DNA of 57,233 bases from Desulfobacterales bacterium (GTDB lineage Bacteria > Desulfobacterota > Desulfobacteria > Desulfobacterales > JAIPEE01), in contig JAIPEE010000025.1 in the NCBI GenBank assembly GCA_021737275.1, forward strand, positions 1-57,233, given 5' to 3'. The translations under genes were made by a program, and so were the position numbers. Shown piece by piece: positions 38,655 through 53,803 of this stretch. The stretch's first letter is position 1. The number at the start of each line of letters is the position of its first letter. Under the pieces are notes generated by a model. The model did no database searches and was not told the DNA's origin. It was given only the letters and a program-made list of their open reading frames with translations.

Positions 38655-40004
38655 TTGTCGGAAAATAATAAAACAGCTTTGGGATTTTGCCTGACATCCA
38701 GTTTTTGGATGGTGGTAGCCACGCTTGCAGGATTGCTGGCAGCAACCAAGCTGGTGGCACCGGATCTTATGGGAAGTATTAGCTGGCTGACTTTTGGCAG
38801 GCTAAGGCCCATTCATATTAATCTGGTACTATTCGGGTTTGTAACACCGGGCCTTCTTTCGGCTGCATTTTATTATTTCCCCAGACTTTTGAAAACAGAT
38901 CTTTTCAGTGAAAAGTTGGGCGTTATAACCATAGTTTTATGGAATATATTTCTTGTATTTGCAACGGTAACGCTGGGGCTTGGTCAGACACAGGGACGTG
39001 AGTATGCAGAAATGATCTGGCCGGTTGATATTATGGTAGCCGTTCTTTTTATAATGGTCTTTGTTAATTTAACCATGACCGTTGCCAACCGGAAAGAGTC
39101 CCTGCTTTATGTTTCAATCTGGTATGTCTGTGCAGGCATCGTATTGACCGCAGTTACATATGCGCTGGGTAATGTAATCTGGCAGCCGGATACCGGCGCA
39201 CTTAAGGGGATACCTGATGCAATTTTACTCTGGTTTTACGGGCATAATGTATTTGGCTTGCTACTGACACCATTGAGTTTGGGTGTGGCCTACTATGTTA
39301 TTCCACGATCCTGTAAAACACCGCTTTACAGCCACACACTTTCATTGCTGGGTTTCTGGTCCCTGCTGGTAGTTTATACCCATATCGGTACGCACCACTT
39401 ACTTCAGGTTCCGGTACCAACCTGGCTTAAAGTAATTTCCATAGTGGATAGTATGGGTATGGTGATTCCGGTCATGATTTTTCTTATTAATATCTGGTAT
39501 ACCGCAAAAGGAAAATTTGCTGAAATTCATGGAGACATCGGGACAAAATTTATATTTGTCGGTACTATTATGTATTTCTTTGTAAGTATACAGGGCTCGA
39601 TGATGGCGCTTCCGCAGGTGCAGCGGATTACCCACTTTAACAACTGGGTTGTCGGTCATGCTCATATCGGTGTTTTAGGGTTTGCAGGAATGATGGCACT
39701 TGGTGGAATGTATTATGTGGTGCCGCATATTACAGGAAGACCTTTATTCAGCCGATTACTGGCAGATTTGCAGTACTGGCTGATTCTGATTGGTGTGATC
39801 GGTTTTACAGTTGTTTTGACCATAGCCGGCCTGATTCAGGGCAATGGGTGGCTGAATGGAGAGACAGTTTACCGGATTCTGGCTGAAATCCATGTATATA
39901 ATGTCATCAGGGCGTCACTGGGGGTAATGATTTTTTTCGGCGCCGTAATTGGACTATACAATATTTTAAGAAGTATTTTTGTTCGATCCGGAGGTGTTCA
40001 GTGA
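38655..40004 (+). CDS. ccoN: CcoN, catalytic subunit of cbb3-type cytochrome oxidase
   Basis: 449 residues, TTG start behind AAAGGAG (38642-38648). Twelve or so helices. The low-spin haem ligand His 54 (RPIHINLVLFGF), CuB ligands His 197 (WFYGHNVF) and His 247/248 (THIGTHHLL), the haem b3 pair His 335/337 (VVGHAHIGV), and the Tyr 241 that aligns with the cross-linked Tyr of known CcoN (44 residues after His 197) are all present. It reduces oxygen with high affinity. Its 3' end overlaps ccoO by four bases. Confidence 0.95.
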   Translation: MSENNKTALGFCLTSSFWMVVATLAGLLAATKLVAPDLMGSISWLTFGRLRPIHINLVLFGFVTPGLLSAAFYYFPRLLKTDLFSEKLGVITIVLWNIFLVFATVTLGLGQTQGREYAEMIWPVDIMVAVLFIMVFVNLTMTVANRKESLLYVSIWYVCAGIVLTAVTYALGNVIWQPDTGALKGIPDAILLWFYGHNVFGLLLTPLSLGVAYYVIPRSCKTPLYSHTLSLLGFWSLLVVYTHIGTHHLLQVPVPTWLKVISIVDSMGMVIPVMIFLINIWYTAKGKFAEIHGDIGTKFIFVGTIMYFFVSIQGSMMALPQVQRITHFNNWVVGHAHIGVLGFAGMMALGGMYYVVPHITGRPLFSRLLADLQYWLILIGVIGFTVVLTIAGLIQGNGWLNGETVYRILAEIHVYNVIRASLGVMIFFGAVIGLYNILRSIFVRSGGVQ

Positions 40005-40930
40005 AGATGACACCGAGGATAGTTGTTATTGGAAGTTTGTTGATACTGGCAGCGGTTGTGCTGGTTGTTGTGGCTTTACCATTTTATACCGTGAGTGATG
40101 CACCATCGGAAATATATCGACAGCGCACAGATGAAGAACTTGCCGGGAAACAGATTTATATAGCCAATGGCTGTGTTTACTGCCATTCACAATCTATCAG
40201 AACAATCGATTGGGGCCTGGGTGCAGAGCGAATTGCACAGTCCGGTGATTATATTGATGATCATCCTATCTTGCTGGGGTCGGCGCGAACCGGCCCGGAT
40301 CTTTCACAGGAAGGCGGCGAACATCCGGATGACTGGCATATGGCACATTTTAAAAACCCGAGAACAACGCGGCCAAACTCTATTATGCCACCATTTTTAT
40401 TCCTGGGTGAGGAAAATATAAAAAAGCTGACAGCTTATGTTCAAAGCCTGGGTATGATCATGGCCGATAAACGAATAGCTCGCCAGAGAAAATGGAAAGA
40501 ATTATCAACTGCTGCTTTTGAAGCTGGTCCGGAAGTCAATGTGAAATGGCTGCATAGTCATGTGCCCGAACCCTGGCAAAAGATTGCTAACCCCTATCCG
40601 ACAACACCCGGCGCACTGGCCAGGGGTCATAAGATTTATCAGGATTTTTGTATGGGGTGTCACGGGCCGGTAGGAGATGGCATGGGACCGGCACAACCGG
40701 ATCTTTATCCACCGCCATTAAATTTTACCATTTTAAAAGATCGCGGTATTTCCGGTGGGATATTATACTACCAGATTATGAACGGTATCACCGGTACGGC
40801 CATGCCATATTTTAAAAAGGAGCTTGAATCCGAAAAAATATGGGAAGTAGGAGATTACGTGGCTGTATATTTCATTAATGAAAGTGATGCCGGCCAGGGC
40901 GGCGGGATAGATGCTGCTTTTGAGAATTAA
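40001..40930 (+). CDS. ccoO: CcoO-like monohaem subunit fused to a second cytochrome c domain
   Basis: 309 residues. GTG start at 40001 with CCGGAGG six bases before; an ATG at 40007 is the alternative. One N-terminal helix, then CVYCH (Cys 58/61, Met 129 as probable ligand in SIMPPF) of CcoO, and after a linker (YPTTPGALARGHKIY) a CMGCH domain (Cys 217/220, Met 268 in GTAMPYF) of the CcoP-like cytochrome type. The standard separate dihaem CcoP is missing, so this fusion probably delivers electrons to CcoN on its own. Confidence 0.85.
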   Translation: MKMTPRIVVIGSLLILAAVVLVVVALPFYTVSDAPSEIYRQRTDEELAGKQIYIANGCVYCHSQSIRTIDWGLGAERIAQSGDYIDDHPILLGSARTGPDLSQEGGEHPDDWHMAHFKNPRTTRPNSIMPPFLFLGEENIKKLTAYVQSLGMIMADKRIARQRKWKELSTAAFEAGPEVNVKWLHSHVPEPWQKIANPYPTTPGALARGHKIYQDFCMGCHGPVGDGMGPAQPDLYPPPLNFTILKDRGISGGILYYQIMNGITGTAMPYFKKELESEKIWEVGDYVAVYFINESDAGQGGGIDAAFEN

Positions 40931-40939
40931 AAAAAGAAT

Positions 40940-41040
40940 TTAGCCACATTCTTAATTATACTCATAATCGTAATCTGGCTTTTGGATGTTTGAAATGAAT
41001 AAAAAGACAATTAAGAATAAGAGTACGATTAAGAGCACGA
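40940..41040. repeat. AT-rich degenerate inverted/repetitive tract
   Basis: The 160-base gap between the CcoO-like gene and the next small gene contains ATTCTTAATT (about 40,949) with AATTAAGAAT (about 41,009), and repeated AATCGTA/ACGATTA words. Similar words appear at 23,470-23,515, between the nfo gene and its neighbour. Small, scattered and imperfect; perhaps a degenerate interspersed repeat. Confidence 0.35.
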
Positions 41041-41092
41041 AGAATAAATTATGTTATAATAACGTAAGTTTAAGTAAAAATCAGGATGCAAA

Positions 41093-41350
41093 ATGTATTA
41101 TCCGTATTTTATTGCATATATGATAATCGGCTTTGCTATCAGTATTCCAGTATTTCTATGGGCACTGAAAAATGGCCAGTTTAGTGATCAGCAACGTGCC
41201 GGCTATTTACCCCTTGAGCCGGAAAGTGATGGCACCGATACAGGGGTAAGTAAAATTCATCGGCTGGAAATCTATGCTCTGTTTGTTTTGATTGCCATGG
41301 GCCTTGCTGCCAGTGCCAGTGTTCTGGTGTTTGCAATATTGAATGCGTAG
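41093..41350 (+). CDS. ccoS: CcoS-like small membrane protein with an extra helix
   Basis: 85 residues. The N-terminal helix and following FLWALKNGQFSDQQ resemble CcoS, which helps insert cofactors in cbb3 oxidase (the CcoS pattern is helix then W-x-x-K/R-S/N-GQFDD). A second C-terminal helix (YALFVLIAMGLAASASVLVF) is not part of standard CcoS. It follows ccoO after a 160-base gap. Confidence 0.6.
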   Translation: MYYPYFIAYMIIGFAISIPVFLWALKNGQFSDQQRAGYLPLEPESDGTDTGVSKIHRLEIYALFVLIAMGLAASASVLVFAILNA

Positions 41351-41362
41351 GAGAGTTAATTC

Positions 41363-41635
41363 ATGCGTTATTTTGAGTGGCTCAACATAGAACATGTAAT
41401 CATGTTTACTGTACCGGCGATGATACTGATTATTCTGATCGGCATGGCGCTGGGCTATACTCATCTGAGCAGAAAGCGGGATAAAGATACCGGAAAAATA
41501 ACAGCCCGATACCCTGATGAATTATCTGAAAGACATTCGCCATTCCCGCTGGTATTAATACTGATTGTTGTCGGAATAATCCTGTGGGCTATCTTTTATA
41601 TTCTAATAGCAGGCTTGAGTGGAGTGAAGATTTAA
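41363..41635 (+). CDS. Small two-helix membrane protein, CcoP N-terminus-like
   Basis: 90 residues with a helix near 12-32 and another at about 60-85 (SPFPLVLILIVVGIILWAIFY). The second helix and its preceding SPFP and trailing G-x-SG turn resemble the membrane anchor of CcoP. There is no haem motif. It could replace the missing CcoP anchor as a structural subunit; inference. It starts 12 bases after the CcoS-like gene. Confidence 0.5.
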   Translation: MRYFEWLNIEHVIMFTVPAMILIILIGMALGYTHLSRKRDKDTGKITARYPDELSERHSPFPLVLILIVVGIILWAIFYILIAGLSGVKI

Positions 41636-41636
41636 A

Positions 41637-41891
41637 ATGGATAAACAACCATCATCAGGTAAAATTTCAAAAAAGGCGATCAGATGCTCCTGGGTAATTG
41701 TCTTGCTGATGGTTGTTTTTATTATTGTTAAGGGCCTTGTTACTTTTTTTGTAGTTGGGGATAAGGGGCAACCGGACTGGGACTACAGACCGGTTAAGGA
41801 TGTTCCCGGTGAATCTCAATATGCTGATTATCCGGATATGCCGGTGCCGCAGCATGTTCGTGGTGGTGAAGAAGAAAAGGAAATCAAATGA
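41637..41891 (+). CDS. Small single-helix membrane protein
   Basis: 84 residues, one membrane helix (about 18-41, WVIVLLMVVFIIVKGLVTFFVV) and a short acidic exterior tail (QPDWDYRPVKDVPGESQ). It starts one base after the previous stop and overlaps actE by four bases. No family recognised; position implies a subunit or assembly factor of the oxidase. Confidence 0.55.
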   Translation: MDKQPSSGKISKKAIRCSWVIVLLMVVFIIVKGLVTFFVVGDKGQPDWDYRPVKDVPGESQYADYPDMPVPQHVRGGEEEKEIK

Positions 41892-42376
41892 TAAGGCGAT
41901 GGATCATATTTGGAATTGGAATTCTTTGTCTGGCTATATTTTTAACTGGTTGCGAATATGACCCCGGTATGCGGGAGCAGCCCATTATTAAGCCCCATGA
42001 AGAACCGGTTCACCATATGGTTGAAGGTATTGTTCCTTTTGGCAGCAGTGAGGAGATATATCGGAAAACAGACCCAAAGATCTTGAAAAACCCAATTGCT
42101 TATAATGCCGAAGCAGTAGCTCTGGGTAAAATCAAGTACGGTATGTATTGTGTTATGTGTCATGGCATTAAGGCAGATGGTATGGGAAGTGTGGGGCAGA
42201 GTTTTAATCCGCTTCCGACAGATCTTTTGTCATCTAAAGTTCAACAGAAGACGGATGGAGAATTATTTAACAATATCAGTTTTGGGCAGAAGAGAGAGCC
42301 GGCTCTTGCCACGACGGTTTCGGTGGAAGATCGGTGGAAGATTATTATCTATTTGAGAAGTATGGTTGACTCTTGA
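41888..42376 (+). CDS. actE: ActE-like monohaem cytochrome c lipoprotein
   Basis: 162 residues. Lipoprotein signal with LTGC (Cys 22), then an exported domain with CVMCHG (Cys 88/91, His 92), MYCVMCHGIKADGMG, and a closing WKIIIYLRSM helix. This is the ActE pattern, a small cytochrome on the periplasmic side of ACIII. Its place at the end of the operon, after the oxidase genes, is unusual. ATGA overlap with the preceding gene. Confidence 0.85.
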   Translation: MIRRWIIFGIGILCLAIFLTGCEYDPGMREQPIIKPHEEPVHHMVEGIVPFGSSEEIYRKTDPKILKNPIAYNAEAVALGKIKYGMYCVMCHGIKADGMGSVGQSFNPLPTDLLSSKVQQKTDGELFNNISFGQKREPALATTVSVEDRWKIIIYLRSMVDS

Positions 42377-42432
42377 AAGCTTTTTATATCATCGGCAATG
42401 ATTAACAAAAAAATTACAATTTCAACTTACCT

Positions 42433-42605
42433 CTTCATTTTCTTTGCCCGGCCAAAGAAAATGAAGCAAAAGAAAGGCCGCCCCTCAACTTTGGCCTTCG
42501 GCTTCCCTCGCTTATGCTATTGCCTGCGGCGAATCCAGGAACTCGCTTAGGCTCAGACAGCCTGGATTCTTCTTCCGCAGTCAATAGCAACGCTCAGCTG
42601 CGTTG
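42433..42605. repeat. Block of three nested inverted repeats (non-coding)
   Basis: Three hairpins are stacked in 173 bases. CTTCATTTTCTTTG (42433-42446) and CAAAGAAAATGAAG (42453-42466) pair perfectly. A long imperfect stem joins 42516-42539 (GCTATTG, CTGCGG, GAATCCAGG) with 42561-42588 (CCTGGATTC, CCGCAG, CAATAGC). CAACGC (42588-42593) pairs with GCGTTG (42600-42605). No coding frame fits. It looks like a multi-hairpin intergenic repeat, of the type often spread by RAYT transposases. Confidence 0.65.
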
Positions 42606-42681
42606 AAAGGGGAAAAGATTAAAGGATAGTATCCATTTTAATAAACAGTAAAACACCTTACGATATGCTATAAAGAAAAAA

Positions 42682-45168
42682 TTGAAGAATCCAACACACA
42701 TAAATCTTCTTTGCGATCTTTGCGGTCTTCCCGTATATTCCAATGCCTTTGATCAAATTATATCAGAAAAGACATATCACTTTTGCTGCACCGGGTGCCG
42801 TCAGGTTTTTAATATCCTGATGGCCGCAGAAGGCAGTAATGATCCGGATAAATTCAAGGAATCAGATGTCTTTAAACGGAGTCGTGAAATGGGGATCATC
42901 CCGGCACCGGATAGTCAGACGGACCTGGATGGCCAACAGACTGAAAGCCAGAACATTAGTTCAAGCCATGATACTACACTGCCAATTTCATTAAACGTAT
43001 CCGGTATGTGGTGCCCTGCCTGTGCATGGCTTGTTGGAGAAGTTATTGGGAAGATACCGGGGGTATCAGAAGCATCTTGTGATTTTTCAATTGACAGAGC
43101 ATGGTTCAGGTATGATCCTGTCAGAACTTCTCCTGCGGAAGTTATCAATAAGATAAATAGTCTTGGTTATAATGCATATAAGTCAGATAAAGAGGCGCGG
43201 CCATTAAGGTCAATTTTAATCCGTTTTTCATTGTGTGCAATACTGACATTAAATGTGATGATGCTTTCATTTGCTCTATACTCTGGATTTTTCACAGAGC
43301 TCCTATCCGGAAGTATTCTCAAGTTGTCTCTACCTATATTTGGTCTTTCAACAGTTGTTGTAATTTATGGTGGTTGGTATATTTTTAAAACAGCAATGCA
43401 TGGTATTAAATCCGGCTTCATGGGAATGGAAATACTGGTGTCCGTTGGAACACTATCAGCATATATTTACAGCGTAACCCAGATGTTTTCCGGTAGCATA
43501 CATCTTTATTTTGATACAGCAGCAATGCTGATCACCCTGGTGCTTTTGGGCAAGTTGTTTGAGGGTTTTGCAAAAAAAGATATAACTGCAGCTTTAAAAA
43601 CGCTGTTCTCGTTATTACCGGGAAAGGTAAAAATCGTATCTGATGATTATCCAGACGGCCGTTATGTGCATGTTGATGCCCTTAATAAAAATGATCTTTT
43701 CAGGGTTGTCCGGGACGATGTGGTTGCTTCAGATGGCGAAGTGGTCAAGGGGCAGGCTGCTGTTGATGAATCTTCAATAACCGGAGAAAGCAAGCCTGTT
43801 ACATATAAGAAGGGAGACTTTATAAAAAGTGGTTCAACGATATTACGGGGAGACCTTACCATAAAGGCACATTTTTCAGCAGGTAACTCAATGCTCGGAC
43901 AGATGGTTGATATCATGCAAAAAACACTATCTCAAAAGATGCCGCTGGAAGGTAAAACAGATAAGATTCTTCAGTGGTTTGTTCCTGTAATTATTTTTTT
44001 GTCACTACTGACAGGCTCTTTTCTCTATTTTTCGGGTACGGCGCTTGAAGCATCTATTATGCGAGCCGTTACTGTAATGGTAATATCCTGTCCCTGTGCG
44101 CTAGGTATTGCCATTCCCCTTGCACGTGTTGGTGGTGTGGCACTCGCCGGTAGAAAAGGCCTTCTGATTCGGGATTTTGGCGTGTTTGAAGCGACGACCA
44201 GAGTTGATACGATTGTGTTTGACAAAACAGGGACGATAACTGAAGGGAAATGGCAGTTGCTTGATATTCAGGCTTTGGGTGAATATCAGAAAGAAGAAAT
44301 TTTGTTTATAGCTGCAGCGTTGGAAGAAGATGTTGATCACTTCATTGCGACTGAAATATTAAACCATGCTTCAAGTAACCAATTCAACATCCCGATTAGT
44401 AATAAAAAAATATATGATAATGGTGTTTCAGGGACTTATAAAAATCAACCAGTTTGTATCGGTTCACGGGAATTTGTTTTAAATCAAGGTAATACTATTA
44501 CTGTAAACGATGGTCCTGATTTCCAGAAACAGAAGAACAGCCTGCAGTCCAGAGTATATTTGAGTTGTGGCGGAAAGCTGGAAGCGGTATTTCTGTTTGG
44601 TGACCGTTTAAAAGAAAGTGTCTCTTTACTTATCAATAAATTGTACAGGCTGGGATATAAAACAGCCGTTATCTCCGGGGATGATGAAAAAGCTGTAACA
44701 AAAATAGCTGAAATTACAGGCATTCAATCTTTTCAGGGTGGCATGACGCCTGTTGAAAAGTCAACATTTATTAATAAACTACAGGAAAACCATCATGTTG
44801 TTATGATGGTTGGTGATGGCATTAATGATGCACCTGCCCTTGCCCTTGCAGATGTCTCTGTTGCCGTTCATACAGGAAGCCGTTTAGGGAAAGAGGCGGC
44901 GGACATTACCTTTTTAAAAAGTGATCCGGCCCAGCTCATCGAGCTGATAGATCTTTCCGGAACAGTGACACGAAAAGTACAGCAAAACTTCAGGGGTTCT
45001 TTTGCCTATAACCTTTTAAGCATCCCAATTGCCATGAGCGGTTTGCTGACACCATTGATTGCAGTGTGTGCCATGCTTATAAGCAGCCTGAGTGTTATTC
45101 TGAATACACTGTGGATGATAAAAAAGCCTCTGAAAACAGAAAGCGGCGCTAATTTAAAACAGGATTAG
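42682..45168 (+). CDS. ccoI: CcoI/FixI copper-transporting P-type ATPase
   Basis: 828 residues, TTG start. The N-terminal LLCDLCGLPV and YHFCCTGCRQVFN cysteines are the CcoI metal-binding domain, then an HMA domain with GMWCPACAW. The P1B catalytic elements follow: SCPCALGIAIPL (CPC in the channel helix, near residue 470), FDKTGTIT (near 515) and GDGINDAPALALADVSVA. It moves copper outward for assembly of the cbb3 oxidase, matching the genes just upstream. The gene converges with the membrane protein at 45149 and overlaps its 3' end by 20 bases. Confidence 0.93.
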   Translation: MKNPTHINLLCDLCGLPVYSNAFDQIISEKTYHFCCTGCRQVFNILMAAEGSNDPDKFKESDVFKRSREMGIIPAPDSQTDLDGQQTESQNISSSHDTTLPISLNVSGMWCPACAWLVGEVIGKIPGVSEASCDFSIDRAWFRYDPVRTSPAEVINKINSLGYNAYKSDKEARPLRSILIRFSLCAILTLNVMMLSFALYSGFFTELLSGSILKLSLPIFGLSTVVVIYGGWYIFKTAMHGIKSGFMGMEILVSVGTLSAYIYSVTQMFSGSIHLYFDTAAMLITLVLLGKLFEGFAKKDITAALKTLFSLLPGKVKIVSDDYPDGRYVHVDALNKNDLFRVVRDDVVASDGEVVKGQAAVDESSITGESKPVTYKKGDFIKSGSTILRGDLTIKAHFSAGNSMLGQMVDIMQKTLSQKMPLEGKTDKILQWFVPVIIFLSLLTGSFLYFSGTALEASIMRAVTVMVISCPCALGIAIPLARVGGVALAGRKGLLIRDFGVFEATTRVDTIVFDKTGTITEGKWQLLDIQALGEYQKEEILFIAAALEEDVDHFIATEILNHASSNQFNIPISNKKIYDNGVSGTYKNQPVCIGSREFVLNQGNTITVNDGPDFQKQKNSLQSRVYLSCGGKLEAVFLFGDRLKESVSLLINKLYRLGYKTAVISGDDEKAVTKIAEITGIQSFQGGMTPVEKSTFINKLQENHHVVMMVGDGINDAPALALADVSVAVHTGSRLGKEAADITFLKSDPAQLIELIDLSGTVTRKVQQNFRGSFAYNLLSIPIAMSGLLTPLIAVCAMLISSLSVILNTLWMIKKPLKTESGANLKQD

Positions 45169-46267
45169 ACTTGTCCTTATCCCTTTTGTTAAAAAATATA
45201 ACACCTAAAATAGCGATATAGCTAAATATGGTCACTATTGCAAAGACCGGATAAAGCGTCCCAAGTGGTGCAAAAATGATAACGGTGAGCCAGTGAAAAA
45301 GTATAACGATCATTGAGTGAAGTTTAATGGGAAAGTCTTTATAACGGCAGACAATTGCAAGGCCGCAGAGATTCCAGCCATAAAGTGAAGCAAAACTGTG
45401 CATACGCAGAAGCAGTTTCATATTTTCCTTGATATAATAATCCGGAAAAAATTTGAATGTGATGTAAGCAATCCCGGTCAGCGCCGTATATAATAAAAAG
45501 GCGATGCCGGAAGAGAGAAATGCTTTTTGCTGAGTTTTGATACCGAGTTTATAAAACAGGAAGAAAACCATCAATACGGAAAAGAGCAGAAAATGGGTAA
45601 TGAAAACCTGTGGCACGAGAAGCTCTGCAATAATTAAGAGAAAAAATATAATAACGCCGAGGTTGATGCTCCAGAAGCCAATCTCTTTAAGTACTAAAAT
45701 GGTATTGCTGACATCGTTTTTCATCAGGGAAAAAATAACTGAAAAAGTAATCAAAGAAACAGGGAACGAAAACCCGAGGAAAAAAGTATTCAGGGTTAGC
45801 ATCTCGAAAGTGAAAATATGAAAATATACATCATTAAGAATAACTATTCCTGATATGACAAGGCCCATAGAAAGGCAGAGAAGAGAAGCCTGGTTAAACT
45901 TTTCAGACACAGGGACAGAGGGCCTGACAAAATCCCGGGGCAGAAATGAAAATCGTTTTATGCGGATTGACTCTACAATTACAGCCAGAACAATGGATAT
46001 TATGACAGCCGGTAAATAAAGTTCCAGAAATGCCAGTATGGCATAGATGATGGCCAGTATTAAAAAGAGAAGAGATCGTTTACTTAATACGGCTTTTTTT
46101 TCAGTGTAAAAAAGGATAGCCGTACCGCCGGCGCAGAGATTAAATAAAAAAATATGGAGCCGTTCAAAATCATAAATTGTTCCGCCCAGAACAAAAAGAT
46201 GCAGGAACCCGAAAGACATGGCCAGCGCCATGAGAAACATTAAGACGGCTTTCAGTTGTTTACTCAT
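45149..46267 (-). CDS. Integral membrane protein of unknown function
   Basis: 372 residues from the ATG at 46267 (MSKQLKAVLMFLM); the longer open frame to 46405 is unlikely because it lies in another gene. About eleven hydrophobic segments fill the protein. Two histidine-rich helical turns stand out, RMHSFASLYGWNLCGL and KLHSMIVILFHW, which could be haem or metal sites but are unassigned. It overlaps the upstream epimerase gene by eight bases and was not recognised. Confidence 0.65.
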   Translation of the reverse strand: MSKQLKAVLMFLMALAMSFGFLHLFVLGGTIYDFERLHIFLFNLCAGGTAILFYTEKKAVLSKRSLLFLILAIIYAILAFLELYLPAVIISIVLAVIVESIRIKRFSFLPRDFVRPSVPVSEKFNQASLLCLSMGLVISGIVILNDVYFHIFTFEMLTLNTFFLGFSFPVSLITFSVIFSLMKNDVSNTILVLKEIGFWSINLGVIIFFLLIIAELLVPQVFITHFLLFSVLMVFFLFYKLGIKTQQKAFLSSGIAFLLYTALTGIAYITFKFFPDYYIKENMKLLLRMHSFASLYGWNLCGLAIVCRYKDFPIKLHSMIVILFHWLTVIIFAPLGTLYPVFAIVTIFSYIAILGVIFFNKRDKDKSNPVLN

Positions 46268-47654
46268 AGTACTCCTTCTTAGCACCCAGAACATGGGACA
46301 ATGCGCTGTAAAGATCCGGATATCTGAATTTATAACCTGTTTCAATAAGTTTTTCAGGATACACGCGGGTGCTTGATAATAAAACCTCTTTGCCCATTTC
46401 ACCAAAAAACAGCTTTATCGCTTTTTCAGGAATATGCATAAATGCCGGGCGCTTCAGAATTTGTGAAAGAATGGCTGTTATTTCATAGTTGGTTGCCGGG
46501 TTGGGTGATACAATATTTACTGGGCCGGTTAAACGATCATTATGTATGATGTGGTAAATGGATCCGATAACGTCATCAATCCCCACCCAGCTCATAAACT
46601 GTTTTCCGGTGCCGATTCTGCCGCCCATTCCCATACTGAAAGGAAGCAGCAGTCGTTGAAGTGCTCCGCCGGAAGGTGTCAGCGCCACACCGATCCGTAA
46701 AAAGACAGTGCGGATATTCTTTTCCATAGCCGGACGGGCTGCATTTTCCCACTGATTGCAGACACTGGATATAAAATCATCACCCGGTCCGTCGGTTTCA
46801 GTCAGCTCACGGTTATCCCGGTGTCCGTAAAAGCCGATAGCGGATGCAGAAAGAAAAACTTTTGGCGGGATTGTCATTTCAGCAGCAGTTTTGGCCAGAA
46901 GAGATGTCCCCTTTGTCCGGCTTTCAATGATGATCTTCTTTTTTTCAGATGTCCATTTTCCCTGGCCGATATGCTCCCCTGCCAGGTGAATAAAAACATC
47001 TATTTGAGGCAGGTGTTCCTTTTCGATTATTCCGTTGGACGGATCCCAGAATACTTCATTTTCCTGAACCGGTTTTTTTCTGACAAGAGAAATTACACGA
47101 TGCCCGCCGGTGGTTAAAAACGGGATAATAGCGCATCCAATTACACCGCTTGCACCGGAAATTAAAAAAGTTAACGGCTTGAATGGTGCTATGGCCTGAT
47201 GTGCAGCCATATCAAGCCGGGTTGTTTCGTGGCGATAGACAAAGATATGTTCAAGACGTTTTTCTACAAATCTGTTTCCCAAAAGAGAGCCAAACGGCGG
47301 CACCGGCAGCGCATATTCAATGGCGTCTTTCAGATAGCAGGCATTTTCACCATCAGGGATAAATGTGTGTGTGTGAATCCATTTTCTGAATGGCCCCCGA
47401 GCCTGCCGGTCCCGAAACATCCGGTTCTCATCATAATCCAGATGTTCCGCTTTCCATGTAAAAGAAACCGGGCCGGCTTTCATTTTAAGGGCTACTTTTG
47501 CACCCTTTTGAATGCCGCCCTCCCTGTGCAGAACTTTAACCGGATCCCACGGCGGGCTGAGCCGCTCAAGTGCTCCCGGTCGGGCGTGCCATTGGAATAA
47601 TTCACGGGCAGATACATCAATATGAGATTGTTTGATAAATATCTTTGTTTTCAT
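46260..47654 (-). CDS. SRPBCC domain fused to a TIGR01777 epimerase
   Basis: 464 residues. The N-terminal 150 residues are a SRPBCC/START ligand-binding barrel (HIDVSARELFQWHARPGALERL, HTHTFIPDG, YALPVPPFGSLLGNRFVEKRL). The rest is a NAD-dependent sugar-epimerase-like SDR of the YfcH/TIGR01777 type (FLISGASGVIGCAI, HLAGEHIGQGKW, SASAIGFYGHR). The fusion is known in various bacteria and its substrate is unknown. It overlaps the downstream membrane gene. Confidence 0.88.
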   Translation of the reverse strand: MKTKIFIKQSHIDVSARELFQWHARPGALERLSPPWDPVKVLHREGGIQKGAKVALKMKAGPVSFTWKAEHLDYDENRMFRDRQARGPFRKWIHTHTFIPDGENACYLKDAIEYALPVPPFGSLLGNRFVEKRLEHIFVYRHETTRLDMAAHQAIAPFKPLTFLISGASGVIGCAIIPFLTTGGHRVISLVRKKPVQENEVFWDPSNGIIEKEHLPQIDVFIHLAGEHIGQGKWTSEKKKIIIESRTKGTSLLAKTAAEMTIPPKVFLSASAIGFYGHRDNRELTETDGPGDDFISSVCNQWENAARPAMEKNIRTVFLRIGVALTPSGGALQRLLLPFSMGMGGRIGTGKQFMSWVGIDDVIGSIYHIIHNDRLTGPVNIVSPNPATNYEITAILSQILKRPAFMHIPEKAIKLFFGEMGKEVLLSSTRVYPEKLIETGYKFRYPDLYSALSHVLGAKKEYYE

Positions 47655-47852: not shown

Positions 47853-48593
47853 ATGAAACTAAAAGCACTTATTTTATGTTTTATGGCAATCTTAATTTTT
47901 TCGAGTGTTTATGCTCAGGAGCAAGGAGGAAACCCTGCTTCGAATTTTCCGGTTAAGACATATACGTTTGATCCTGTTCCGGAAGGTAGTGTTGCACAGT
48001 ATGATTTTGTTGTCCGGAATACAGGAGATGCACCCCTCGATATTTCCAAAGTTAAATCCGGCTGAGGGTGTACCGTTGCCGATTTCTCCCGGCAGATCCC
48101 TCCAGGTGGAGAGGGAAAGATAACAGTAACATTATCAACATCCGGCCATGGCGGACAGAGAATGTCAAAGCCGGTTATTGTTTTCACAAATGACCCGGAA
48201 AAACCGAAAACAACGTTAAGCGTTATTGTGGATGTTGACAAGGTGGTCAGCATTTCGCCTCAATTTGTGCGCATAAACGGTAAGGTCAGCCAGAAGTTAT
48301 CAGCAAAAGTGACGATTGCCCCGACTGAAAAATATGCGTTTAGTATTATTAGTTCAGAAATTATTGGTAATGGCGAAGAAAATATTTTAGTGGATATTAC
48401 CTCTTTGAGCCGTCCTTCAGGGACATCTTATATTCTGACAATAGATAATATAAAGGCTACGCCGGGAAGTTATCTTGATACAATATTGCTGCGAACGGAC
48501 AGTGAGGTAAGACCGGAGATAGAAATTAAAGTTTACGGCAATATAACTGCAGAAATACCGCAGGAACAGGAAAGCGGTTTTATAGATGAGTAA
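47853..48593 (+). CDS. DUF1573 exported protein with in-frame UGA, probable selenoprotein
   Basis: 246 residues from ATG 47853 (ribosome site AAAGAGG, 47838-47844), signal peptide ending ...SSVYA. In-frame TGA at 48063-48065 replaces residue 71 in KVKSG-U-GCTVADF; the frame is otherwise open to 48593 and shows full DUF1573 sequence on both sides: TYTFDPVPEGSVAQYDFVVRN before and VADFSRQIPPGGEGKI, STSGHGG, TNDPEKPKTTL after. In DUF1573 proteins this place is normally Cys in a CGC motif, so Sec-Gly-Cys (residues 71-73) is what Cys-to-Sec exchange would give. A hairpin at 48097-48116 fits a SECIS. It is a periplasmic domain; its last eight bases overlap the HAD gene. Confidence 0.8.
48063..48116 (+). 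promoter_or_regulatory. UGA codon and candidate bacterial SECIS hairpin
   Basis: UGA at 48063-48065. TCCCTCC (48097-48103) pairs with GGAGAGGGA (48108-48116) with two extra bases on the 3' side, giving a loop AGGU (48104-48107), which contains the GGU expected in bacterial SECIS apical loops. The distance from UGA to the loop G is about 39 bases, at or slightly beyond the usual upper limit. A second closer stem, TGCCG/CGGCA (48077-48081 and 48090-48094), has no GGU loop. Confidence 0.55.
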
Positions 48594-49203
48594 TATCGAG
48601 GTTATTGTTTTTGATTGTGACGGCGTTATGTTTGACACGGAACAGGCAAACATGGCGTATTATAATGAAGTTCTTTTTCACATGAATCGCCCCGGCTTGA
48701 CACCCGAAGAGTTTCAGTTTGCCCACATGCACACATCCGATGAGGTGCTGGCCCGTCTTTTCAAAAAGAAAGATGAGTATGATGCCGCTCAGGCTTATCG
48801 CAAAACAATGAGGTATGAAGATTTTTTTCAATACATGGACATAGAGCCGGGTCTGGTACCGCTTCTTGAAAAATTGCAATTGTCATATAAAATTGCTATT
48901 GCTACCAATCGTGCAGATACCATGGAAAAAATGCTGAAGAGATATAAAATCGAAACCTATTTTGATCTGGTGGTAACCGCGCTTGATGTTGAAAAACCAA
49001 AACCGGACCCGGAAGAACTTTTCAGGATTCTTAAGCATTTTAATGTTACACCGGAAGAGATGCTTTATGTTGGTGATTCTAAACTGGATGAACTGGCCGC
49101 CAAAGGCGCCGGTGTGCCCTTGATTGCTTATCGAAACAAAACCCTTGAGGCCGCTTATTATATATCCCGATTAAGTGAAATTGAAGAAATTGTTGGTGTG
49201 TGA
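48586..49203 (+). CDS. HAD-superfamily phosphatase/phosphoglycolate phosphatase-like
   Basis: 205 residues. VFDCDGVMFDTE (motif I), ATNRAD (motif II), KPKPDPEE (motif III Lys) and YVGDSKLDELAAK (motif IV) identify a beta-phosphoglucomutase/phosphoglycolate phosphatase-type HAD hydrolase with a small alpha-helical cap. The substrate is unknown. It overlaps the DUF1573 gene by eight bases. Confidence 0.9.
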   Translation: MSNIEVIVFDCDGVMFDTEQANMAYYNEVLFHMNRPGLTPEEFQFAHMHTSDEVLARLFKKKDEYDAAQAYRKTMRYEDFFQYMDIEPGLVPLLEKLQLSYKIAIATNRADTMEKMLKRYKIETYFDLVVTALDVEKPKPDPEELFRILKHFNVTPEEMLYVGDSKLDELAAKGAGVPLIAYRNKTLEAAYYISRLSEIEEIVGV

Positions 49204-50529: not shown

Positions 50530-51123
50530 ATGTCAAGTATTGGAATCTCCGGTTCAGATGCACCGGCCATCTCCCGGGAAGATGCACTGACCTTATTAAA
50601 AAAGCATTTGAAAAATGAAAAGCTCATATCCCACTGTGTCGCATCAGCGGCTATTATGCGGCATCTGGCAAAACATCTTGGTGAAGACCCTGATGCCTGG
50701 GGCATTGCAGGCCTTCTCCATGATCTGGATTTTGAAATAACAGATCAGGATGAATCAAAACATGGCGCTGTTGCAGCCGAAATTCTTGAAAAAGAGGGGG
50801 TCTCTTCCGGGATCATTGAAGCCATAAAAATGCATAATGCAGAAGGGTTGGGGCTTACCCGCACAACCACATTTGACCATGCGTTGACCTGTGCCGAATC
50901 GATTACCGGAATGATTGTAGCCACCGCGCTGGTTTATCCGGATAAAAAAATAGCGAGTGTAAAGCCCAAATCCATTACGAAGCGCATGAAAACACCGCAC
51001 TTTGCTAGAGCCGTCAGCCGGGAACGGATAATGGAATGTGAAAAGATCGGGCTGCAAATTAATGACTTTGTGATCTTGAGCCTTGAAGCCATGGGTGAAA
51101 TTTCAGACGAACTGGGACTATAA
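50530..51123 (+). CDS. HD-domain phosphohydrolase
   Basis: 197 residues of the HDIG type: SHCVASAAIMRHLAKHLG, GIAGLLHDLDFE (His-Asp pair), KHGAVAAEIL, KMHNAEG and TFDHALTCAESITGMIV. It is a stand-alone domain often found beside nucleic-acid enzymes. Substrate is unknown (nucleotide or cyclic nucleotide). The stop codon lies just before the polA start with one base between. Confidence 0.88.
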   Translation: MSSIGISGSDAPAISREDALTLLKKHLKNEKLISHCVASAAIMRHLAKHLGEDPDAWGIAGLLHDLDFEITDQDESKHGAVAAEILEKEGVSSGIIEAIKMHNAEGLGLTRTTTFDHALTCAESITGMIVATALVYPDKKIASVKPKSITKRMKTPHFARAVSRERIMECEKIGLQINDFVILSLEAMGEISDELGL

Positions 51124-51124
51124 T

Positions 51125-53803
51125 ATGACTGATGATAAAACACTGTACCTCATAGACGGCAGTGCATATATTTACCGCGCCTATCATGCTATTCGCAACC
51201 TTTCCAACTCTTCCGGTATGCCCACAAATGCGGCATATGGCTTCACCCGGATGCTGATGAAACTTTTTGATGACCGGTCGCCTGACTATGTGGCCTTGTT
51301 TTTTGATGCCAAAGGGCCGACATTCCGGCATGAGCAGTATACGGAATATAAGGCTAATCGTCCCCCCATGCCCGATGATCTGTCAGTCCAGATACCCTAT
51401 ATAAAGGAAATTTCAGCCGGATTTAATCTACCGGTTTTAGAGATACAGGGTTTTGAGGCAGATGATCTGATTGGAACCATTGCAAGGCAGGCGGAAGCGG
51501 CCGGTTTTTCGGTTGTGATGGTTACCGGTGACAAAGATTTTATCCAGTTGGTTACAGATAAGGCTACGATATGGGATCCCATGAAGGACAAAATCATTGA
51601 TATGAAATCTGTAAGAGAGAATTTTGGTGTTGAGCCAAAACAGATGATTGAGGTGATGGGGCTTTCCGGAGATACCGCCGATAATGTGCCGGGCGTCCAG
51701 GGCATCGGGCCAAAGACAGCGCTGACCCTGATCAGGGAGTTTGGAAATATGGACGTCCTGTATGAACAGGTCGATACCATTACAAAGAAAAAGCAGAAGG
51801 GAAACCTGATAACATTTAAAGAACAAGCATTGTTGAGCCGTGAGCTGGTAACCATCAAAACCGATGCCCCAGTTAAGTTCAATGCGGATGAATATAAAAA
51901 GCATGAACCGGATAGTGAAAAGCTGGCTGAGCTTTATAAAAAATTGGAGTTCAGGCAACTACAGAAAGATGTGCCTGAAAAGGCCGACCTTTCAAAGAAA
52001 AAGTATAAATCAATTCTTGATAGGAATGCGTTGACTGATCTTGTTACAATGATTGGAAAGGCCGGTGAGTTTGCCATTGATACGGAAACTACAGCACTTG
52101 ATCCCATGAAAGCTGAACTGGTGGGCATATCTATTTCCATTAACCCTGACGAAGCTTTCTATATCCCCGTTGGTCACAATTACTTAAACATGCCGGAGCA
52201 GCTTGACAGGGAAGATGTTTTAAAAACACTGGCACCTGTTCTGACAAACCCGGAAATTAAAAAAATCGGCCAGAATATTAAGTACGACTGGATAGTATTA
52301 AAAAGACACGGCGCGGAACTAAATGGTGTTTCTGTTGACACGATGCTGGAGTCCTATCTCATAAATCCCTCAAAACGTGCACATGGTCTGGATCAGATAG
52401 CACTCGATTTTCTGGACCATAAAACCATCACATATAAGGAAGTGGTCGGCACAGGAAAAAAACTGATGAATTTTAGTGAGGTGCCCATAGAAACAGCAGC
52501 ACCCTATGCGTGTGAGGATGCAGATATTACACTGATGGCGCATCAAATCCTCTCCCCAAAAGTAAAAGATCTGAACCTTGTTGATCTTTTTGAAAAAGTA
52601 GAGATGCCCCTTGTTCCCGTATTAATGAAAATGGAGATGCGTGGCATTGAAGTAGATAAAAAGGCATTATCCACATTATCAAAAACTTTTGAACAGGAAC
52701 TTGATAACCTCGAGAAGGCAATTTATGTTCTTGCCGGAGAAGAATTTAATATCAAATCCTCCCAGCAGCTCGGCCATATTCTCTTTGAAAAACTGGAACT
52801 CCCTGTCCAGAAAAAAACCAAAAAGAAAACCGGTTATTCAACTGATGTAAATGTTTTGACAACACTGGCAGATTATCACGAACTGCCGGCTCATATTCTT
52901 CGCCACAGAACCATTGCCAAGCTCAAATCAACATATGCTGATGCCCTGCTTGATCTGGTAAATGAAGAGACCGGACGAATTCACACATCTTATAATCAGA
53001 CGGTAACAGCCACAGGAAGGCTTTCAAGCTCTGATCCAAATCTGCAGAATATTCCGATCCGGACAGAAGAGGGCAGGAAAATACGTGAAGCCTTTGTACC
53101 TCAAAAGGACTGGCTGATGTTATCAGCAGATTACTCACAAATAGAGCTTCGTATTTTTGCACACTGCTCCAATGACAAAATTCTGGTCAAGGCTTTTAAT
53201 GAAGATGAAGATATCCATGCCCGCACAGCCGCCGAAGTCTTTGAGATGATTCCGGGGCTGGTGGACGACGAACTGAGGCGACAGGCCAAGATTATTAACT
53301 TTGGAATTATCTACGGTATGGGAGCATTCAGCCTTTCCAAAGAACTCGGAATCAGTAACAAGATGGCAAAAACCTATATAAATAATTACTTTTCCAGGTA
53401 CAGCGGCGTAAAGCAATTCATTGATGAGACAATAGAAACAGCAAGAGAGAATAAAAAAATCAGTACGTTGCTTGGCCGCATTCGTTTGTTGCCGGATATT
53501 GACAGCGCCAATAAAAATATTCGTGAATTTGCTGAGAGAACTGCCGTCAATACACCTATCCAGGGAACTGCCGCGGATCTGATCAAAGTTGCCATGATAA
53601 ATGTGGACAGGGTTTTTGAGGAAAAGGGACTAAAGGCCGGTATGCTGCTTTCCGTTCATGATGAAATTGTTTTTGAGGTTCCGCCGGATGAACTGGAGGA
53701 GGTAAAAACGATAGTAAAATATGAAATGGAAAATGTCTGGGACCTTAAGGTTCCGCTGAAGGTTAATATGAATTATGGGAAGAATTGGTCTGAAGCGCAT
53801 TAA
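51125..53803 (+). CDS. polA: DNA polymerase I
   Basis: 892 residues from ATG 51125; the frame opens earlier at 51083 but that part lies in the upstream gene. Domains in order: 5' exonuclease (LYLIDGSAYIYRAYHA, GFEADDLIGTIAR, GDTADNVPGVQGIGPKTA), active 3' proofreading exonuclease (AIDTETTALDPM, QNIKYDW, YACEDADITL), and polymerase (DYSQIELRIFAH, RRQAKIINFGIIYGMG, SVHDEIVFEV). All three catalytic parts are complete. It follows the HD-domain gene by one base. Confidence 0.97.
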   Translation: MTDDKTLYLIDGSAYIYRAYHAIRNLSNSSGMPTNAAYGFTRMLMKLFDDRSPDYVALFFDAKGPTFRHEQYTEYKANRPPMPDDLSVQIPYIKEISAGFNLPVLEIQGFEADDLIGTIARQAEAAGFSVVMVTGDKDFIQLVTDKATIWDPMKDKIIDMKSVRENFGVEPKQMIEVMGLSGDTADNVPGVQGIGPKTALTLIREFGNMDVLYEQVDTITKKKQKGNLITFKEQALLSRELVTIKTDAPVKFNADEYKKHEPDSEKLAELYKKLEFRQLQKDVPEKADLSKKKYKSILDRNALTDLVTMIGKAGEFAIDTETTALDPMKAELVGISISINPDEAFYIPVGHNYLNMPEQLDREDVLKTLAPVLTNPEIKKIGQNIKYDWIVLKRHGAELNGVSVDTMLESYLINPSKRAHGLDQIALDFLDHKTITYKEVVGTGKKLMNFSEVPIETAAPYACEDADITLMAHQILSPKVKDLNLVDLFEKVEMPLVPVLMKMEMRGIEVDKKALSTLSKTFEQELDNLEKAIYVLAGEEFNIKSSQQLGHILFEKLELPVQKKTKKKTGYSTDVNVLTTLADYHELPAHILRHRTIAKLKSTYADALLDLVNEETGRIHTSYNQTVTATGRLSSSDPNLQNIPIRTEEGRKIREAFVPQKDWLMLSADYSQIELRIFAHCSNDKILVKAFNEDEDIHARTAAEVFEMIPGLVDDELRRQAKIINFGIIYGMGAFSLSKELGISNKMAKTYINNYFSRYSGVKQFIDETIETARENKKISTLLGRIRLLPDIDSANKNIREFAERTAVNTPIQGTAADLIKVAMINVDRVFEEKGLKAGMLLSVHDEIVFEVPPDELEEVKTIVKYEMENVWDLKVPLKVNMNYGKNWSEAH

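Follow-up and report, generated by a model that had tools for sequence, protein, structure and literature searches.

The window analysed here, a stretch of 57,233 nucleotides from a Desulfobacterales bacterium, almost certainly carries a genuine bacterial selenoprotein gene, a member of the OS_HP2/DUF1573 family, in which an in-frame UGA would be decoded as selenocysteine (Sec). We favour this reading because of the family membership of the predicted protein, the exchange of UGA and Cys codons at a single alignment column, the Sec-decoding machinery of the source genome and an RNA structure that appears to be under selection. The coordinates of the features are collected in Table 1.

Table 1. 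Features of the candidate selenoprotein locus, in window coordinates.
Feature	Positions	Strand	Description	Support
OS_HP2/DUF1573 selenoprotein gene (predicted)	47853..48593	+	246 aa, Sec at residue 71, N-terminal signal peptide (putative)	NF041425 120.5 bits
In-frame UGA, predicted to be read as selenocysteine	48063..48065	+	first residue of U-G-C motif	column comparison across homologues
Hairpin 1 of putative insertion signal	48076..48095	+	window stem UUGCCG/CGGCAG	covariation in 7/7 pairs, 50 Sec sequences
Hairpin 2 of putative insertion signal	48097..48116	+	SECIS-like, GGU loop; UCCCUC/GAGGGA, or alternative fold CUCC-AGGU-GGAG	
HAD-IA phosphatase gene	48586..49203	+	start overlaps selenoprotein stop by 8 bases	Pfam HAD_2 124 bits

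When TGA is translated as U, the frame yields all of its residues followed by a stop, and its sole interruption is the one TGA, which gives K-S-G-U-G-C within KVKSGUGCTVADF. The Pfam DUF1573 match (residues 32-120, 71 bits against a cut-off of 26.1) runs across the UGA, and the NCBIfam model NF041425, 'OS_HP2 family (seleno)protein', matches residues 33-128 with a score exceeding its cut-off of 100. This model asks for Sec or Cys as the first residue of a (U/C)-G-C motif; in the window, codon 71 is UGA and Gly-Cys follows. An earlier sequence-only reading of this DNA had described the frame as open except for this TGA, with DUF1573 sequence on both sides, and both points were borne out by the translation and the Pfam match. 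A mechanical scan of the window, homology aside, found five other frames open across a TGA. Such a frame is thus not rare in itself, and the weight therefore rests on the alignment of homologues, to which the window protein is 29-41% identical.

For this alignment, 67 homologous places were compared, namely the window, 65 places from relatives (52 same-order relatives) and one from an unrelated contig. The same-order sample comprised 58 genomes, each from a different family; a homologue was present in 53 of them, and most matches had exactly one TGA. At the column of residue 71, TGA was found in 52 places and a Cys codon in 14 (TGC in 12, TGT in 2), and Gly-Cys directly follows the TGA in 52/52 cases. 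The remaining place (L074; G049:C39:16990-17661, minus strand) is an OS_HP2 homologue misaligned by the program: it has TGA at the usual column, followed by Ala-Ser in place of Gly-Cys, the partner Cys being missing. The proposed check of DUF1573 homologues around residue 71 hence came out as an exchange of Cys and UGA at this column, and the TGA does stand, as had been claimed, at the first Cys of the family's CGC motif. In a sample of the phylum, a match was obtained in 119 of 297 genomes, and the family cut-off was exceeded at 40 places, 31 of which had one TGA by our count; scanning genome contigs with a single-protein query returned one distant Cys homologue. Overall, the predicted Sec form is the rule, not a rarity, for OS_HP2/DUF1573 in the order of the source genome. 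A tree of 65 homologues requires a minimum of seven Sec/Cys changes, a figure that is only indicative, the tree being poorly resolved (5 of 62 branches starred). Genome G034 holds a Cys and a Sec copy that are sisters (L059 and L064; support 98), which suggests that a recent duplication was accompanied by an exchange of Sec and Cys; part of the hairpin 1 sequence is retained in the Cys copy of this pair.

In the source genome, profile matches were obtained for selA (619 bits) and selB (372 bits), together with one tRNA-Sec of 73.4 bits (gathering score 47) with the anticodon tca (UCA). Two selD genes also exceeded the cut-off, and in both of them the catalytic motif begins with an in-frame TGA. 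These two genes (L020 and L021) lie about 2.8 kb apart on the minus strand of contig C63 of this genome (165761-169484), and both copies of this selenophosphate synthetase appear to be selenoproteins themselves. The Sec decoding genes that a bacterial selenoprotein calls for (selA, selB, selD and tRNA-Sec) are thus all in the genome; where the sequence-only reading had suggested looking for selB, selA and selC, we found selA, selB and tRNA-Sec. Of the 58 genomes of relatives, 56 have a selA match exceeding the cut-off, and a search with strict filters detected tRNA-Sec in 49. Genomes of the order thus generally decode Sec, so that loss of the decoding system does not account for whether a family member carries Sec or Cys, and we rejected such a loss as the origin of the Cys copies.

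The RNA downstream of the UGA was analysed at the level of the family. In 50 Sec sequences, hairpin 1 corresponds to alignment columns 14-20 paired with 27-33, and each of its seven pairs shows changes at both bases; its pair 17-30 is formed in 50/50 sequences, as UA, CG or UG. Hairpin 2 corresponds to columns 36-42 paired with 46-53 and has both-side changes in four of seven pairs. Over the whole structure of 14 pairs, 81% of cells are paired and 11 pairs carry both-side changes, a covariation reached by 0/500 shuffles. When the partner strand was slid by 1-3 bases, pairing fell to 35-52%; in 13 Cys homologues it was 48%, near the shuffled level. Because the hairpin region is protein-coding, folding energies were compared with those of synonymous-codon shuffles, which keep the protein. 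In the case of hairpin 1, the z-score was -2.1 in the window, with a mean of -2.51 in 52 Sec genes as against -0.50 in 13 Cys genes; in the case of hairpin 2, the corresponding values were -2.3, -1.90 and +0.41. With the same shuffles, the regions 60-120 bases downstream and 60 bases upstream in these genes gave little or no signal. Summed z-scores are too large to be taken as probabilities, the sequences being related; the difference seen between Sec and Cys genes, however, is independent of kinship.

The window by itself was less telling: against dinucleotide shuffles its folding energy was uninformative (z about -0.4 to -0.7), an Rfam search of the window gave no match, and RNAalifold on the family alignment recovered just 6 of the 14 pairs. 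It is the family comparison and the synonymous-codon shuffles alone that resolve the structure. They support a SECIS-like RNA structure, apparently under selection beyond the protein sequence, which lies just downstream of the UGA and is specific to the UGA-bearing homologues. The SECIS-like hairpin with a GGU loop that had been noticed earlier is present as hairpin 2, and hairpin 1, which covaries better and lies between it and the UGA, had been overlooked. Altogether, column exchange, machinery and RNA structure lend support to the DUF1573 selenoprotein with Sec-Gly-Cys that the sequence-only reading had put forward.

By eye, the N-terminus of the protein resembles a signal peptide, and the predicted structural model consists of a leader helix (2-19) and two beta-sandwich domains (mean pLDDT 95, pTM 0.80). 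From this signal sequence, the product is probably exported to the periplasm. Among solved structures, the model came closest to ciliary-protein domains of the Ig-like/ASH type and to 2qsv, an uncharacterised protein of Porphyromonas gingivalis; whole-model TM-scores are low (0.3-0.5), which is to be expected of two flexibly arranged domains, and show the fold class only. A sequence search of solved structures gave no match. Among the homologues, the only conserved Cys positions are Sec/Cys71 and Cys73, and His is nearly invariant at position 50, which is Tyr in the window protein.

Regarding the neighbouring genes, a same-strand HAD gene lies directly downstream in 43 of 50 Sec loci as against 4 of 13 Cys loci (Fisher p 0.0002), and its extrapolated start is at most 30 bases from the selenoprotein stop in 33 of 47 loci. 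In the window, stop and start share the bases ATGAGTAA. The Cys loci that retain the HAD gene (L068, L069, L071 and L104) look like cases in which Sec and Cys were exchanged at the same genomic site; those lacking it are mostly extra copies elsewhere. PriA precedes the gene at 27 loci and DNA polymerase I lies downstream of it at 9, as is the case in the window (polA, 51083-53803). Further upstream in the window, the plus strand carries a cbb3-type oxidase-like set (large subunit, cytochrome c subunits) and then a copper-type P-ATPase (38655-45168 in all), the latter (42682-45168) with heavy-metal-associated and TRASH-like metal-binding domains. On the minus strand, 46260-47654 encodes a TIGR01777/YfcH-family oxidoreductase fused to an N-terminal polyketide-cyclase/START-like domain; it is overlapped by a membrane protein ORF (45149-46405) that matches no family. 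No redox partner was found among the neighbour genes, and the conserved surroundings give no hint of a redox pathway.

We propose that the UGA at 48063 would be decoded as selenocysteine by SelB and tRNA-Sec(UCA) with the aid of the two-hairpin SECIS just downstream, and that the product, led by its N-terminal signal sequence, would be exported, its two Ig-like beta-sandwich domains carrying Sec71-Gly-Cys73. These residues would most likely form a reversible selenenylsulfide and act as a redox centre for thiol or peroxide chemistry. Judged from the motif alone, such a periplasmic redox site is slightly favoured over the sum of other possibilities. Alternatively, Sec-Gly-Cys of the same selenoprotein might serve as a periplasmic binding site for copper or mercury, as soft metals, or for a metalloid, without redox turnover. 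The lack of a Trx-like or other catalytic fold in the Ig-like model argues for this possibility, as do the restriction of conserved Cys/Sec to two positions, accompanied by the nearly invariant His50, and the copper-type P-ATPase and cbb3-type oxidase genes upstream. However, the Tyr at position 50 of the window protein argues against it, and so does the fact that the gene's conserved neighbours are the HAD phosphatase and PriA, not the oxidase and the ATPase; we consider metal binding rather unlikely.

Two further explanations were considered. The UGA could mainly be a regulated stop, at which selenium-dependent read-through sets the level of the translationally coupled HAD phosphatase, the Sec protein being secondary. 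The overlap of stop and start in the window, the short distances at most other loci and the association of the HAD gene with Sec copies would all fit. Nevertheless, four Cys copies keep the HAD gene, so that the link does not require the UGA, the sequence 3' of the UGA is conserved as protein, and closely spaced genes are common in bacteria, all of which makes this role of the UGA very improbable. The gene might finally be a truncated pseudogene or the product of a sequencing error, with the UGA as a real stop and the downstream part decaying. UGA is indeed a stop in the standard table 11, and the window does contain read-through frames that are open by chance, yet it is the alignment column that decides: the same UGA recurs in 51 other places spread over many families of the order, and the protein is conserved before and after it. 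UGA conservation and selection on the downstream codons already refute decay, to which we assign a negligible probability.

Regarding what was known before, the GOS selenoproteome (PMC2398784) includes OS_HP2 (pfam07610, UxC), and a 'DUF1573 domain-containing protein, UGC' stands in selenoprotein catalogues (PMC9312934, PMC13188914); PMC13188914 credits this UGC entry to the study that described the selenoproteome of the Delta 1 symbiont of Olavius algarvensis. The sequence-only reading had held an exported DUF1573 selenoprotein with Sec-Gly-Cys to be undescribed, which was wrong given these three sources and NF041425. The window protein is a new member of an already catalogued selenoprotein family. 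What may be less documented are the near-universal Sec form in the order and the two-hairpin insertion signal, and the close link to the downstream HAD phosphatase gene also seems less documented. The case shows that a true selenoprotein which standard gene calling splits in two can be recognised by reading the raw sequence. For most selenoproteins, a role in redox reactions is assumed (PMC9312934); the window protein is predicted to be an Ig-like exported one.

Compared with OS_HP2 as described (NF041425, PMC2398784, PMC9312934, PMC13188914), the window protein is alike in domain, UGC motif, Sec position and a score over the curated cut-off, and nothing essential differs; it has Tyr50 where most homologues have His. 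The Cys DUF1573 proteins (PF07610), e.g. of Bacteroides and relatives, share the domain, but have C-G-C instead of the U-G-C of the window and no UGA, and the Cys homologues compared lack the two-hairpin signal.

In the case of the RNA signal, the published bSECIS model expects a loop of 3-9 bases, a stem of 4-16 bp, a G in the first two loop positions, a distance of 16-37 bases from UGA to loop and an energy of at most -7.5 kcal/mol, and some elements are known to deviate from it (PMC13188914). Neither window hairpin satisfies all of these constraints together, and each form of hairpin 2 misses one: the minimum-energy form is at distance 37 with no G in the first two loop positions, and the alternative form has a G in its loop AGGU at distance 38. 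Hairpin 2 would be the natural SelB-binding hairpin; its position is at the far limit of the model, and hairpin 1 takes up the space before it. More speculatively, and with less than an even chance by a good distance, a variant tandem-hairpin SECIS can be envisaged in which hairpin 1 is also required and brings the distant loop within reach of SelB, read-through then feeding translation of the overlapping HAD gene. We found no description of a two-hairpin SECIS form in a non-exhaustive literature search. The family signal resembles the bSECIS consensus (PMC13188914) in being a sufficiently stable stem-loop right after the UGA, with a G within the first two loop positions of hairpin 2 in 49 of 52 Sec genes. 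It differs in that, for 49 of 52 genes, the distance from the UGA to this G-bearing loop is 37-39 bases, as against 16-37 in the model, and in that a second covarying hairpin stands between the two, a concrete and testable departure from the published model.
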